64,000 nt of DNA. Source: a virus. The notes under the pieces were generated by a model, which was not told the origin of the DNA, did no database searches, and saw nothing but the letters and a program-made list of their open reading frames with translations. Positions 8,288 through 52,412 of this stretch are shown one piece after another (position 1 is the stretch's first letter; every line of letters begins with the position of its first letter). The stretch is taken from positions 1-64,000 of the IMG/VR virus record IMGVR_UViG_3300003322_000872. One strand, 5' to 3'. A program made the translations under genes and the position numbers.

Positions 8288-11200
8288 TTATCCTCTAGCC
8301 CATTTGTCATTCTTTATATCTCTCATCCGCTCTGGGAGAACTTCACGAGAGAAATGTCCCATACCTTGCTCTATCTGTTCATTGGTGTTCTTATGGATTT
8401 GTTCCAACAGTTCCTTATCGCGGACACCGTCCACACGAACATGGCTCTCGTAGGTGATATGGATATTGGTATTGCTCGGCGGACGATTGTCGTTGCCGTA
8501 CGCCGAAATTCCAAGCCGCCCATTGCGACCTCGCATAAGTGGCATGATCGCTTCCGGCCCACGCTCACCCATAAGACCAATGCCGGATGCCATGGGGAAC
8601 AAGGTCGGCCGGTCTACAACACCGCCAGTAGCGAAAGCCGTTACCTGACCATTGCTAAAGGCTGCACCGTTTGCGAACAATCCACCAAAGAGCGATCCAA
8701 AGATATTGCCAATCCCAGAGCCGATGCTCTTGAACAAATTGCCAAGCGAAGATGTGAGTGTTCCGAGTAGACCTTGGGTTTGCTGTGGGACCTGTGCAGT
8801 CGTGGACGCGAGCGAGGTTGCCGAGCTAGCCACCGAACTCGTCGATGTTGTCAGTGCCTTACTCGTGTCCGTAGCGCTACTGGCAAGTTGACCAATATTG
8901 GTGTCGGTCTTCGCCGAGGTTGTAGACAACTTAGACAAGCTTTGATTAGCAGTCTGTGCTGCCGGAAGAAGATTGGTCTGTTGTCCAGCTGTCTGCGATC
9001 CCTGCAAATACTGATTGGAATAATTAAGCCGGTTTGTGTACTGGCTCGCCCCCATCGGATTAGTCGCACTGTAGCCGGATGGACGCTCATATCCGAGCAT
9101 TGCGTTATTGGCTTCGGTAACGTTCGTTGAGGACCGCAGCCGTGCCCATGACGCACTTTCCGAGGTGGCAAACTCATGATCCATAAAGGCGAGTTGGCCT
9201 TGCGGATTGGTCCGCCAATCTGCACCAACGAACCGTTGCATCGCAGGACCACGATCATTCCATTGAGCTAGACCCAACGCATTACCATTGTCTCCAACAA
9301 TCCCAGGATTGAAGCTAGACTCAGCTTTGATATTCCCCATGATCGCGGAGATTTGATAGTTCGGGAGCCCCTGTGCCGCAAAATGCTGCCACACCAATTG
9401 CTCATTAGCCGACAATCCGGCGGGCATGCCCGCAACAGTCGTTGTAGACAATTGGGAAGCTGTTCCATTTACAAGTTGTCCGGCTACATACTCCGGCCGT
9501 ACTCCATTAACAGCCGCAGCCGCCACTGGGTTATTTACAATTCCATTGTTCGTCAGGGTCGGCCGCACACCATTCGTAACAGCATTAGCCGCCGCCCCCG
9601 GCGCGGTCGGGAACATACCTGGCAATCCCCCGAGTCCTGGTACGGCACCATTAACGAACACAGTACCGGCAGTAACATTCATCGAAGCCGTAGTTTGTGC
9701 GCCAGCCAAAGCCGATAATGGCTTGCCACTAAACAAATCACTTATGGTCGGCAAGTTGGTGCCGAACAAGGCGTTCTTAATTGGATTGGCAATAGCGAGC
9801 TGGTTAAAGAACTGGAGGAATTGCATCCCCATATTCTTGAGAGTATCCTTCCAGGACGATCCGACTGTTGTCATACCATTAACCAGCGTATCAACCATCG
9901 ACGAGCCGGTTTGTTGCCACGACTGCCATGCCGCCTGCATCCGCTCATTCTCGAGCTTTGCCTGTGCAAGGGCTGCTGCATTATTCTTGATCGTTTGTGC
10001 ATACTGTGAATTCAGATCGATGCCCTTTTCGGTCATCGCCTGTTCAGCCTGCAAGATAGCCAAACCACGCGCGCGCTCTTCAGCCGAGGCATGGATAAGT
10101 TCACGCTCCCGAATCAACGTGTCCATCTGTTTGGACTGATCCTGAATCATCGTCTCGGCGGCTGTTATAGACTTAAGCCGCGCCATTTCCTCGCCCAATG
10201 CTTTAAGAGCAGCGGCCTGTTGCGGCGTTAGCGAAATATTCTGCGCCGCCGCCTGGTTAATAAGCTTCATCTGCTCTGCATAGACTGAGGCCTCATAACC
10301 AGTCATTTTTAACTGCGTAGCAAGTGTCTGCTGTTCACGGATGTTATCCTGGGCCGACTTCACCAACGCTGTCAAAGCATCTGACATCTTTTGGGTATCG
10401 TCGGCGGCACCGGGGGTAGTCCCCGGTATGGTTGTGGTCGGCGTTGCTCCCGGTTTGGAAAGATCGCCTTTGTGGCCGAACATATCACCCAATGGGTCCG
10501 ACGACATGATGTCCTTGATCCGCTTTTCGCGCTCATCCATCATGGTCTTGAGCTGTTCGAAATAAGGATTTTCCAAAGGTGGAAGTATATTCTCATCCAG
10601 ATTTAGACGTTGTAAATTAACTCCTGGAATGTAGTTTGCAACAGCAATCATCTTGTCGATTGCAAAGCGGAATGCATTGATGAGGCTATTGAGGTTCTCG
10701 ATGATAATATTCACCATCCCGATCATGGCTGCACCAATGATCGTGGGGAAATTTTGAACAACAGTCTTTACATCATCGAAAGCCGCTCGGAATGAATTGA
10801 TGATCGTATTACCAACTGTCTTGAGAATATCACCAACGTCGACCCCGATCGCTTTCTTGATCTCGTCCCGGAAATAATAGATCGCGGTAACAGCGAGGAC
10901 AATACCCTCCAAGATCGCTGTGAAAGGATTTGACAACGTAAAGGTGATCATCGCGCTTGTGGCAGCGCCGATCGCCGACACGAATCCTTCGCCCATTAGG
11001 GTAACTATAGTCCCTAGCGACGTCGCCATCGCCGGACCGAAAGCGACAAGAAGCGCGGCACCAGCGGCGGTAGCGTATGGCGCGATCTTTTCCAAATTTT
11101 CGTTTATTAACGAAATCACATTTACGACCTGTGTCGCTATGTCCACCACATTCTGTAACGCGGTAACAAACCCAGTACCGACAATCGTGACGAAACTTTG

Positions 11201-17044: not shown

Positions 17045-18019
17045 TTAGGCCAGCTTGTGCTTGAAGGCGACCATGCGGATTTGCTTGGCCTCGTACACGC
17101 GCGACCAGTTGCCGGCGGTTGCGAGCTCTGCATTGGTCGGCGTATCTGCGGCCGCCGTTCCGATCCACTTGATACCACGCGGATGCAGCGTGAAGTGCCG
17201 GCGCGAGATCAGATATTCTTCACCACCGCCGACGAGGCCGTTACGCTCGGTTTCGGTCGGCACCTTGGGAGTACCTTCGCCGAAGCCGATCGCGCCGGGG
17301 CCGAAGAAATAGGTGGTATAGACGCCAGAGGAAACCGGCATGCCGTCGTCGATGATCACACGCTTGCCCATGTACATGGCAACCGGCTTGTTGTCGGAAT
17401 CCAGCACGTAGTCGATCAGGTTGAGCTTGCGGAACAGGCGCTCCGTGTTGGAGTGCATGGCGACGGCGGTGAGCACACCTTCAGCGTCGCCGAGCATGCC
17501 CATCGCGTCGATGACTGCTTCCCCGTCGGCGACTGCCGCCGCGCCGGACAGACCCGAGATATCGTAGATGTTCACGTCCGGGGACTCGGCCGCGAGCGCG
17601 CCGAAGGCACCGGCCAGAACGGAGATCAGTGCGGCCTGCATCCGGCGGGACCATTTGGCAGCATAGAGGTCGCCGATAGCAGTCATCGGATCGGAACCAG
17701 CCAGCGGACCGACGAGGTCCTTGGCGCCATAGACCAGCGCACGGGCATTCAGAACGGCGACGTCCTTGGCCGAGGTGATGTTGCCGACGGTCAGGTTGGT
17801 GTTGGTCGAGAGGATTTGATCATTGCCGGCCAGGTCGTTCCAGAAGGGCATCTGGATTTTGTTGCCGCCCTGCTGGGAATTGACATCACCCATGTCCAGC
17901 TCGGGAACCGGGGCAACGATGCCGGAGGTCCAGAGAGCGGAAAGCTCGGCGGTACGATTGATCACATAAGGGGTGAACACATCCGGAACGATTGCGTCCG
18001 AGAGAACTGTGGAAGCCAT
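17045..18019 (-). CDS. Major capsid protein (HK97-fold, gp13-like class)
   Basis: A 324-residue protein starting MASTVLSDAIVPDVFTPYV with an early helical and loop region (TAELSALWTSGIV) and ends with RRHFTLHPRGIKWIG and YEAKQIRMVAFKHKL, features of the P2/gp13-like coat protein family. It lies downstream of a scaffold-like gene. The ribosome site CAGGAG is about 10 nt before the ATG. Its 5' leader holds a hairpin array (18074-18210). Abundant expression is expected. Confidence 0.9.
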   Translation of the reverse strand: MASTVLSDAIVPDVFTPYVINRTAELSALWTSGIVAPVPELDMGDVNSQQGGNKIQMPFWNDLAGNDQILSTNTNLTVGNITSAKDVAVLNARALVYGAKDLVGPLAGSDPMTAIGDLYAAKWSRRMQAALISVLAGAFGALAAESPDVNIYDISGLSGAAAVADGEAVIDAMGMLGDAEGVLTAVAMHSNTERLFRKLNLIDYVLDSDNKPVAMYMGKRVIIDDGMPVSSGVYTTYFFGPGAIGFGEGTPKVPTETERNGLVGGGEEYLISRRHFTLHPRGIKWIGTAAADTPTNAELATAGNWSRVYEAKQIRMVAFKHKLA

Positions 18020-18073
18020 GGTGAAGCTACTCCTGTCGCATGACTTGGTTTCGATTTGGGGAAATTGTTACCA

Positions 18074-18210
18074 GATCAGGCACAGCGCTAATCAGGGCGA
18101 GGGCACAGCGCCTCAGGAGTTTTTCCCTTCCCGGCACAGCGCGGGCAGGGAGCTAGGGCCGACAGGCCCTAGTAGTCTACGACATCGGATAAGGCACAGC
18201 GCTTATCCGA
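18074..18210 (-). other. Array of four hairpins with identical CGCUGUGC loops in the capsid leader
   Basis: In the transcript four stem-loops carry the same 8-nt loop CGCUGUGC on different stems: TCGGATAAG/CTTATCCGA (18210-18185), CCCG/CGGG (18145-18130), GAGG/CCTC (18114-18099) and GATTAG/CTGATC with one G-U pair (18093-18074). Inside each loop GC-UGU-GC can pair further, leaving a bulged C and a UGU triloop. The first stem contains the scaffold gene's stop codon. A fifth hairpin with a UGUC loop lies between the first two. Stem sequences differ while pairing is kept, which argues for a selected RNA structure. Confidence 0.8.
18153..18172 (-). other. Additional hairpin in the capsid leader
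   Basis: CTAGGGCC-TGTC-GGCCCTAG forms a perfect 8-bp stem with a four-base loop, without a U-tract. It lies within the CGCUGUGC hairpin array but does not share its loop. Confidence 0.6.
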
Positions 18211-19066
18211 GCGCATGCGTAGCAGCAAGGGCCGTAGCGCCATCCTTGAAACCAGCGGCCTGAGCCAGCCGGTTAAGCTTGACGGCATCCGAACGAAGCC
18301 TTGCCTGCTCCGTCTTGTTCCAATGCTCCTTGCTGAATGGGTTCGTGCCGCCGCCAGTATTCTGGTTGTTGCGCTTCCCACTCGGGTCGGGGCCGGTTGG
18401 CAGCGAGACATAAATCTTGCCGTCGTCCGAATTGGACCAAGTGGAAATATAGTCCATAACCGACGCTTCGCCTAGATCGGTTTTAAAGAAAGTCCGAATA
18501 TTTTTTTCATCATCCATGTCGAACTGGATTTTGGCGCTGTGAAGCGCACGGACGGCGGGCCGGAACTTGGGGTCGATATTGGCCTTGTCCATCGCGGAAT
18601 CCAGATCGATCTCGGCCTTGTCACGACCACGCGCCTTGTTGAGCTCGTCGATGGTGGCGTCCTTGGCGGCAATGTCCGTCGAATATTTGACCTTCAGATT
18701 GGCGATCTGGGTTTCATAGTTGGACTTGAGTGCGGCAAGTCGTTCGTTCTCCTTGTCATGCTTTTTCTTCTTGCCCTCGGGGTCGTTCGGGTCGATCTCG
18801 TCCTCCAGGGCCTTCAGCCGCAGCCATTCGTCCATGGACCAATCAGTGGGCAGATCGCCCCCGATCTTCTCCTTCAGAGCCGCGAGCTCCTGCTTGGCTG
18901 TATTGCGCTCGGCTTCCTTGCGGTCCATGGCAGTCTTCATCTGGACCACCTGCGGATGGTTGGCGACACCATCCAACTTGAGATAGAATTTGCCGTCCTT
19001 CTCCTCGTACAGGCCGCGATAGGCCTCCTCAACCTCATCGAGATTTGTAACCAGTACCTTAAGCAT
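18203..19066 (-). CDS. Capsid scaffolding-like protein
   Basis: A 287-residue protein (MLKVLVTNLDEVEEAYRGLY) with a long Lys/Glu-rich coiled region at about residues 45-150 (AERNTAKQELAALKEKIGG), then a C-terminal part with GGGTNPFSKEHWNKTEQA, typical of scaffold-like proteins upstream of HK97-fold capsid genes. It should direct prohead assembly and leave before packaging. The start overlaps the upstream gene by 8 bp. Its stop codon lies inside the first stem of the leader hairpin array. Confidence 0.8.
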   Translation of the reverse strand: MLKVLVTNLDEVEEAYRGLYEEKDGKFYLKLDGVANHPQVVQMKTAMDRKEAERNTAKQELAALKEKIGGDLPTDWSMDEWLRLKALEDEIDPNDPEGKKKKHDKENERLAALKSNYETQIANLKVKYSTDIAAKDATIDELNKARGRDKAEIDLDSAMDKANIDPKFRPAVRALHSAKIQFDMDDEKNIRTFFKTDLGEASVMDYISTWSNSDDGKIYVSLPTGPDPSGKRNNQNTGGGTNPFSKEHWNKTEQARLRSDAVKLNRLAQAAGFKDGATALAATHALG

Positions 19067-50396: not shown

Positions 50397-52412
50397 TCAT
50401 GCAGCCTTCCGCATCTCAAAAATCTCGCGGTTGCCCTTGCCTCTGTTACGCCGGACCTCTTCGAAAGATAGGGGTTCGGCTTTTTTGTATTCCTCGATCT
50501 CTTGGGATGCCTGACCCCAATTCCATCCATATTGAAGATCAACCTTCATCGGCACCTTAAGGTGCACGACATCGCGCATTATCTCGGCAAACAACGTACC
50601 TGTCTTGGCGTCCCCGATTGGTGCGCATAGCTCATCGTGCATCTGTAGAGCTGGTAGGATACCTGCGCGATAGCACGCTAGCATGGCTAGTTTTGTCTGC
50701 CGCGCGGCGGAGCCTTGGATAAGCCGGTTCATAGCCTTATGCGTAAATGCGCGCCGTAGTCGCTGCCCTGGCCATTGAACACGGGCCTGCTCTATCGGCA
50801 TGGGTGGCTTGTATTCGGACTCCTCATCGCGCCATGCCAGCTCATACATATCGAACCGGCAGCGCGCACCATCCAGCAACCGGATATAGCCACGGTTATT
50901 AGCCCGCCGCGAGCAGAACTCGGCCAGCTTCTTAACGAACGGCATACGGATATGATACTGGGCAACGATCTCCTTAGCCTCATCGATCGGAATACCCAGC
51001 GACACAGCCAACTTAAACAGGCCCATGCCGTACATCAGGCCGAGGTTGATGATCTTGGCCTTCTTACGCTCAATCCCGGTAAGCTCGGCCACCATCGTAT
51101 GGAAGTCAGCATCGGGATTGTTCATGTAGTAATCAACCGCCGCCGTAGACCCCTCCAATTCACACAGGGCGGAGAAGTGAACAGCGAGGCGTGGCTCTTG
51201 CTGGCTATAGTCGCCCGAAGCCCAAAGTGTGTCGAGCTCCGGAAGGAATATCCCCCGGACCAGCGGCGATAGAACCGGATCGCGCCCAGGCATTTGCTGC
51301 AACGGGGGATTGCTGTAGCTAAATCGGAACGATCGAGTGCCACCATCATCGTCCCTAAGCTGATGCACTTCGGCGTGAATGCGACCAAAATGCGTGGAGC
51401 CTAGCAGGTAGCCTCCAATGAACTTTTCAGACATGTTGTTGTATTCACGAGCCGATGCCACCAATCGCGGTAGCCAGTGCTCATGCTTTTCCATCCAGTC
51501 CGACTGGAAGCTACCCTTCTGGGTCTTCGGTGTCTTGGTGTACGGCACCTGCTCTTGCTGGAATGCGCGTTCGAGCGATCCGGGCGAGTTCGCATGCTCC
51601 ATCGTAAACTGGCCCCATCCAAGGTTACGGGCCAGCTCATTTAATATCTCATCGCGTTTGGCACGTAGCTGCGCCATGGTGCCGTCAGCCGCGTTTTCAT
51701 CGATCGGGATGCCCCGCTTACGCATAGCGAGGACCATGGGGACCAGATCGCATTCCAACCGGTATGCGGCTGTTAAATCCTGCGCATGGATTTCCCCGAG
51801 CATGTCTTCCGCCGCAAGTAGCGTGGAGACCGCGTCTTGTTCGGCATATCCACCGACATGACGAGCCGGGAGTTTGTACATTTCAGCTTTTGGATCGATG
51901 CCAAAAGCCGCCGCTGCTTCGCGAAGAGCATCCTCATCCTTACCGGGGACACCACGCCAACGGCAGATAGCATCCAAGGAATAGGACAATCGATTTTCAT
52001 CGAGTAATACCGCCATTGCATGTGTGTCATCTGCCTTGTCGGATGGTATTTGGACGTCTTCGGTTGATAAGCCGCCTTCGTCGTACGAGCGATTTTGAAA
52101 GTATACCCGTTTAGCATTATCGAGGACAGACTGGAGCCAACGGAAGGCTTCGTCGGACGGAAAATTACGGGAGTCAGGATGTCGGACAGGAATGTATGTT
52201 GATTTGACTTCATTGTTAACCTTCCATGCCAGCGAAAAACCGGCGACATAAAAGTCTTCGTCATTAAATACCCAGCCCGGACCCCTCTTCTTTAGCAGGA
52301 CGTCCTTGGTTTCAGTATCCAACGCCACGGGTATCCCACGCGGGATCGTGGGATAATCCTTGGGTTCCTGCCACTTTGTTTCCGGTTCAAATAGGATAAG
52401 TTGATCAGACAA
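50397..52412 (-). CDS. DNA polymerase I-like (family A) replicative polymerase
   Basis: A 671-residue protein. IPVALDTETKDVLL near residue 30 is the 3'-5' exonuclease ExoI motif. The polymerase domain has motif A SGDYSQQEPRLAVHF, motif B KKAKIINLGLMYGMG and motif C ALQMHDELCAP. No 5' nuclease domain is present. The length fits phage family A enzymes. The start overlaps the nucleotidyltransferase stop by 8 bp. It replicates the phage genome. Confidence 0.93.
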   Translation of the reverse strand: MSDQLILFEPETKWQEPKDYPTIPRGIPVALDTETKDVLLKKRGPGWVFNDEDFYVAGFSLAWKVNNEVKSTYIPVRHPDSRNFPSDEAFRWLQSVLDNAKRVYFQNRSYDEGGLSTEDVQIPSDKADDTHAMAVLLDENRLSYSLDAICRWRGVPGKDEDALREAAAAFGIDPKAEMYKLPARHVGGYAEQDAVSTLLAAEDMLGEIHAQDLTAAYRLECDLVPMVLAMRKRGIPIDENAADGTMAQLRAKRDEILNELARNLGWGQFTMEHANSPGSLERAFQQEQVPYTKTPKTQKGSFQSDWMEKHEHWLPRLVASAREYNNMSEKFIGGYLLGSTHFGRIHAEVHQLRDDDGGTRSFRFSYSNPPLQQMPGRDPVLSPLVRGIFLPELDTLWASGDYSQQEPRLAVHFSALCELEGSTAAVDYYMNNPDADFHTMVAELTGIERKKAKIINLGLMYGMGLFKLAVSLGIPIDEAKEIVAQYHIRMPFVKKLAEFCSRRANNRGYIRLLDGARCRFDMYELAWRDEESEYKPPMPIEQARVQWPGQRLRRAFTHKAMNRLIQGSAARQTKLAMLACYRAGILPALQMHDELCAPIGDAKTGTLFAEIMRDVVHLKVPMKVDLQYGWNWGQASQEIEEYKKAEPLSFEEVRRNRGKGNREIFEMRKAA

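Follow-up and report, generated by a model that had tools for sequence, protein, structure and literature searches.

Hairpins with a common, lineage-specific tip in the capsid leaders of SPP1-gp13-type phages suggest an undescribed RNA switch

The window, by which we mean the whole 64,000-nucleotide stretch analysed here, is part of a 77,484-base IMG/VR virus record and encodes a head scaffolding protein and a major capsid protein on its minus strand. The leader between the two genes holds a series of small hairpins, four of which share one loop. In the order of the minus strand, the features are as follows.

18203..19066, minus strand: head scaffolding protein (phrog_206, E 9e-15)
18185..18210, minus strand: HP1, 9-bp stem with loop CGCUGUGC at 18194-18201; the 5' arm overlaps the scaffold stop codon (18203-18205)
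18153..18172, minus strand: an extra fifth hairpin between HP1 and HP2, perfect 8-bp stem with loop UGUC; membership of the array is uncertain
18125..18150, minus strand: HP2, 4 bp, a G-A mismatch and 4 bp more, with loop CGCUGUGC at 18134-18141
18098..18115, minus strand: HP3, 5-bp stem with loop CGCUGUGC at 18103-18110; a joint HP3/HP4 fold competes
18074..18093, minus strand: HP4, 6-bp stem including one G-U pair, with loop CGCUGUGC at 18080-18087
18046..18052, minus strand: GAAACCA segment 5' of the Shine-Dalgarno sequence, common to loci L001, L264 and L401
18030..18034, minus strand: Shine-Dalgarno-like AGGAG of the capsid gene
17045..18019, minus strand: major capsid protein, SPP1 gp13 type (PF20036, phrog_247)

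The sequence GCGCUGUGCC appears four times on the minus strand of the scaffold-capsid region, against an expectation of 0.12 in the window. GCGCTGTGCC was found exactly four times in the 64-kb window, always on the minus strand (18079, 18102, 18133 and 18193); shuffles gave a mean of 0.12 copies and none reached four, and the rest of the 77-kb record contained no further copy. Every copy of GCGCUGUGCC forms the tip of a hairpin whose stem is different each time, and dinucleotide shuffles of the window leader never produced four identical-tip hairpins on differing stems. The four minus-strand hairpins with an identical loop and differing, paired stems that the initial annotation had described from this leader are thus real, although some of their particulars required amendment. 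It had given the stems as 9, 4, 4 and 6 bp, which is accurate for HP1 and HP4, while HP2 continues for a further four pairs beyond its mismatch and HP3 has five. It had placed all the hairpins between the scaffold stop and the capsid start, as is the case for HP2 to HP4, but the overlap of the HP1 5' arm with the stop codon means that HP1 is not strictly intergenic. Finally, the perfect UGUC hairpin stands among the four that it had counted.

As had been proposed, the CGCUGUGC loop closes further in RNAfold, giving a bulged C and GC[UGU]GC. The thermodynamic model assigns HP3 and HP4 a probability of only ~0.2 as separate hairpins, since a joint fold (window positions 18093-18121) outcompetes both, and the free RNA may therefore differ from the bound RNA. 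HP4 ends at 18074, with AGGAG at 18030-18034 and the capsid AUG at 18019, so that the array does not overlap the start site. In L001, L264 and L401, the 3' arm of the final tip hairpin is a possible pairing partner of the GAAACCA segment; the corresponding competing pairing in the window is weak (-1.2 kcal/mol). No promoter-like site was found in the window leader. Neither this leader nor the capsid leaders of 20 related loci matched Rfam 15 above the gathering threshold, in agreement with the earlier statement that no described family covers the array.

A capsid-protein search returned more than 200 loci, some of them sharing one contig, to which named phages were added. Leader length divides this capsid family. 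In many SPP1-like phages and prophages the scaffold and capsid genes are ~10-60 nt apart, whereas scaffold-capsid leaders of a Queuovirinae-like group are mostly 124-423 nt long and those of the window's own neighbours often 70-220 nt. The element is absent from close capsid relatives whose leaders span 10-60 nt. One of them, L366, has a capsid protein 59% identical to that of the window and a leader of only ~25 nt, which indicates that loss or gain of the element is possible inside the clade. In seven Queuovirinae-like leaders (L160, L161, L162, L164, L166, L167 and L168), a TTGACA/TTGACC-type promoter-like sequence, with a TA-rich hexamer ~17 nt further on, precedes the hairpins and overlaps long inverted repeats.

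The exact array of the window is not kept in its relatives. A search of viral contigs for CGCTGTGC-N8-38-CGCTGTGC revealed no second array among the matches listed (at least 120 stretches); the sole case there with two complementary-flanked copies was a repeat-rich stretch, L088, in which all stems are the same AATT. What the relatives do have is the same kind of hairpin, directly 5' of the capsid ribosome-binding site and, in certain phages, also 5' of the one for scaffold, with a tip that varies by lineage (UGU, GAU, AGU, AAU, AUGG, ACGG or AGGG) and is usually common to the hairpins of one phage. Loop drift of this kind, which the initial annotation had itself set against its reading, defeats the version with a fixed CGCUGUGC loop, as different tips take its place, in most cases throughout a leader; the version with lineage-specific recognition stands.

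The Queuovirinae-like group has the tip C-AUGG-G, with ACGG in both hairpins of Seurat and yong3 and AGGG in both hairpins of L190, L200 and L210. Most tips in the window's half of the tree are triloops, namely GAU in L001, L003, L257, L258 (three copies) and L259; AGU in L264, L286/L393, L295 and L401; AAU in L305 (three copies with the same 2-nt bulge) and L389; and UGU in L388, with an AANC tetraloop in L394 and L395. The window's own tip is also found in L002, whose capsid is 65% identical to that of the window and whose matching genome record is Paracoccus siganidrum (L155); here the UGU hairpins are GGGGC[UGU]GCCCC before the scaffold gene and GGCGGC[UGU]GCCGUC before the capsid gene. 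Bulges occur in tip hairpins of L305, L286 and L184. Hairpins of one phage disagree in L205 (AUAA/AUGG), L192 (AGGG/GUGG), L392 (CAUU/CAUU/AUC) and L264, where a UGU hairpin precedes the scaffold gene and an AGU hairpin the capsid gene. A tree of 51 capsid proteins implies ~15 changes of tip class, a rough guide only, as the class of each tip was assigned manually, support is weak at many forks and short-leader phages lacking the element were counted as one class. UGU occupies three separate places on that tree (the window, L002 and L388), and tips differ even between phages with capsids 80-85% identical.

The repeated tips are far more frequent than chance would provide. Among 96 long, non-redundant leaders of SPP1-gp13-type capsid genes, 20 contain two or more hairpins whose tip and closing pair are identical although their stems differ, against 1.4 expected from shuffles, which extends the earlier claim of repeated tips on different stems to the relatives. 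The same pattern was seen in 2.3% of 861 random 170-nt windows from the same loci and in 3/54 other gaps. This non-redundant count supersedes an earlier strict array test that included near-identical leaders (13/98 versus 0.45). In the Queuovirinae-like group, 84 leaders contain 52 C-AUGG-G hairpins, compared with 2.35 in shuffles. Counted in 200-nt bins over the 7 kb examined in 79 loci, 37 AUGG hairpins lie in the bin that precedes the capsid gene, and most of the remaining bins are empty. Within-leader tip agreement in the window-type (triloop) group was 6/18 pairs against a permuted mean of 1.5 (p=0.004); in the AUGG group, where almost every tip is AUGG, the same permutation (p=0.32) therefore lacks power.

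That the array behaves as an RNA element, as had been suggested, is borne out by the stems. With both pair types allowed equally, 88 tip-defined hairpins contain 73 G-U and 17 A-C pairs (p=2e-9), where base composition predicts a ratio of 0.89, so that RNA of the coding strand, not a DNA palindrome, is likely the selected form. In an alignment made from sequence only, 83.8% of the cells of the second hairpin are paired; its covariation score of 0.375 compares with 0.192 in shuffled alignments (0/500) and with at most 0.139 in slid versions. Among other candidate identities for the array, DNA palindromes were dropped on this G-U bias, terminators because no intrinsic terminator (a G+C-rich hairpin followed by a U run) lies at 17900-18500, and CsrA sites because the window tips lack GGA.

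The element had been described before the capsid gene, where it is indeed found; in relatives it also occurs before the scaffold gene. C-AUGG-G hairpins form a second, small cluster directly before the scaffold start, in 9 of the 79 loci (L180, L184, L188, L198, L208, L225, L230, L238 and L253), and L258, L401 and L002 have GAU, AGU and UGU hairpins, respectively, at this position. The 56-kb genome G001 has only three AUGG hairpins of at least 7 bp, one before the scaffold gene and two before the capsid gene. There is no tip hairpin before the scaffold gene of the window, where the upstream gene overlaps. Some further structures were noted in passing. Providencia phage PSTCR7 (W02) has a perfect 10-bp AUGG hairpin at 50499, 13 nt before a 111-aa ORF that is a possible further target gene, and a 20-bp near-perfect inverted repeat on the minus strand of G007 (~8609-8621) consists of two AUGG-type hairpin units. 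Upstream of the scaffold gene in the viral contig L184 lies a permuted alphaproteobacterial tmRNA gene (L184:1428-1807; Rfam RF04321/RF01849).

We favour, with confidence that is about evenly balanced and on the strength of sequence comparison, the reading that the array is an RNA operator whose shared tip would be read by a lineage-specific, probably phage-encoded factor, for which a head protein is the simplest candidate. Stem-loops could also serve to stabilise the capsid mRNA or, through RNase processing, to shield or set its 5' end, in which case the tips would matter little. Such a role would suit an mRNA that has to be abundant, the TTGACA-type promoter-like sequences directly 5' of the hairpins in several Queuovirinae leaders, and the position of the hairpins tens of bases 5' of the AUG and not over it. 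However, tips are conserved and common within a leader while stems vary, and the window leader has no promoter-like site. Moreover, the stable UUCG leads among tetraloops elsewhere in the loci, yet AUGG dominates within leaders, which shows that the choice of tip is not one of mere stability. We consider a role confined to mRNA stability unlikely. Inverted repeats acting at the DNA level, or recent hairpin duplications with no RNA function, are very improbable given the 73:17 asymmetry of G-U over A-C, compensatory stem changes around constant tips, and a position conserved in deeply diverged phages. This is despite the overlap of promoter-like sequences with inverted repeats in Queuovirinae and the appearance of some repeats, such as HP1 and HP2 of L388, as freshly duplicated. 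Shared tips could also come from hairpin duplication followed by stem drift, as L388 suggests, but selection would still have to hold the tip.

If the tips are read, the reader could belong to the host. CsrA, which many hosts carry, has the consensus CANGGA; in the Queuovirinae-like group the C-ANGG-G tip is similar and likewise lies near a ribosome-binding site, as though the phage borrowed host control through a CsrA/RsmA-type protein or another host factor. Nevertheless, G follows the tip in nearly all hairpins in place of the A of GGA, leaving CANGGG, and the tips of the window and its neighbours (UGU within CGCUGUGC, GAU, AGU or AAU) have no GGA core, that of the window group being wholly different. 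A search of 10 of these phage records revealed no csrA gene, and the difference in tips between phages with such similar capsids also argues against a host factor, which we consider decidedly improbable. The same difference indicates that the factor is probably phage-encoded. It need not be a head protein, as a dedicated phage regulator might read the tips in the way that N reads lambda boxB, and lineage-specific tips at few sites per genome are the expected trace of one. The recurrent sites are found only at head genes, though, and a non-exhaustive search uncovered no candidate regulator gene, and so we give a dedicated regulator a small but real chance.

In anatomy, the hairpins recall the coat operators of ssRNA phages (MS2, Qbeta, PP7), which are likewise small phage hairpins, tied to capsid production, with a bulge 2-3 bp below a tip of 3-4 nt. 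The bulged C in the window is an unpaired base ~2 bp below a short loop of this kind. The coat operator, however, has a bulged A and an ANYA-type loop in place of a bulged C and UGU, covers a start site where the window array lies upstream of the Shine-Dalgarno sequence, and precedes the replicase gene instead of capsid and scaffold genes; the leaders described here also have several copies and belong to tailed dsDNA phages, whose capsid fold is unrelated. As the array is upstream of the start, has a different tip and resembles the operator in anatomy only, we have not filed it as a member. Lambda boxB (nut) offers a phage hairpin with a lineage-specific tip matched to a phage protein, a match that we infer here, but it is a pentaloop working with boxA and N. 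Modelled tips in the present hairpins are 3-4 nt and differ from it, the copies are clustered before head genes, and antitermination is not indicated. The P22 scaffolding protein is a precedent for a tailed-phage head protein that autoregulates head-gene expression after transcription, albeit in an unrelated phage and with no hairpin array described. In T4, the phage proteins RegA, gp32 and gp43 act as translational repressors of phage genes, in the case of gp32 and gp43 autogenously (PMC3014915). RegA sites are unstructured, A+U-rich and hold the AUG, and the T4 targets are replication genes (PMC3014915), unlike the present hairpins upstream of the Shine-Dalgarno sequence at head genes. A literature search, mostly outside subscription journals and excluding the 2017 survey of 224 structured RNAs, found no capsid-leader RNA of such a kind, and the element is likely, though not proven, to be novel.

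Under the operator reading, the scaffold-capsid mRNA would fold into several small hairpins with a shared tip, which in the window is the bulged C with GC[UGU]GC. A lineage-specific, probably phage-encoded RNA-binding factor would read this tip; the stems would merely present it and so be free to vary, and the several copies may provide avidity or a graded response. As the hairpins sit upstream of head-gene ribosome-binding sites, the factor most likely controls translation of those genes. The last tip hairpin has a competitor in L001, L264, L305 and L393, where its 3' arm can pair with a segment beside the Shine-Dalgarno sequence; in L305 and L393 the energies of the two folds are similar. 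Tip occupancy could thereby switch the structure beside the ribosome-binding site. We infer such a trans-acting factor, its identity and the direction of its control. We tentatively propose that the binder is one of the head proteins, either capsid or scaffold, and that it regulates its own synthesis so as to keep assembly in balance.

To our knowledge, it is poorly understood how scaffold and capsid synthesis are timed and kept in proportion in tailed phages. The leader element suggests a so far undescribed RNA switch that tunes capsid output and, in some phages, scaffold output. It is possible, although we hold it with less than even confidence, that in SPP1-gp13-type tailed dsDNA phages the capsid or scaffold protein is a tip-specific RNA regulator of its own head genes, acting through multi-hairpin operators whose code has been switched many times. 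A widespread, unannotated RNA element with a lineage-switching code makes scaffold/capsid control testable in culturable phages (Seurat, 9g, CA8 and JG054), and capsid-leader hairpins might supply new orthogonal RNA-protein pairs.
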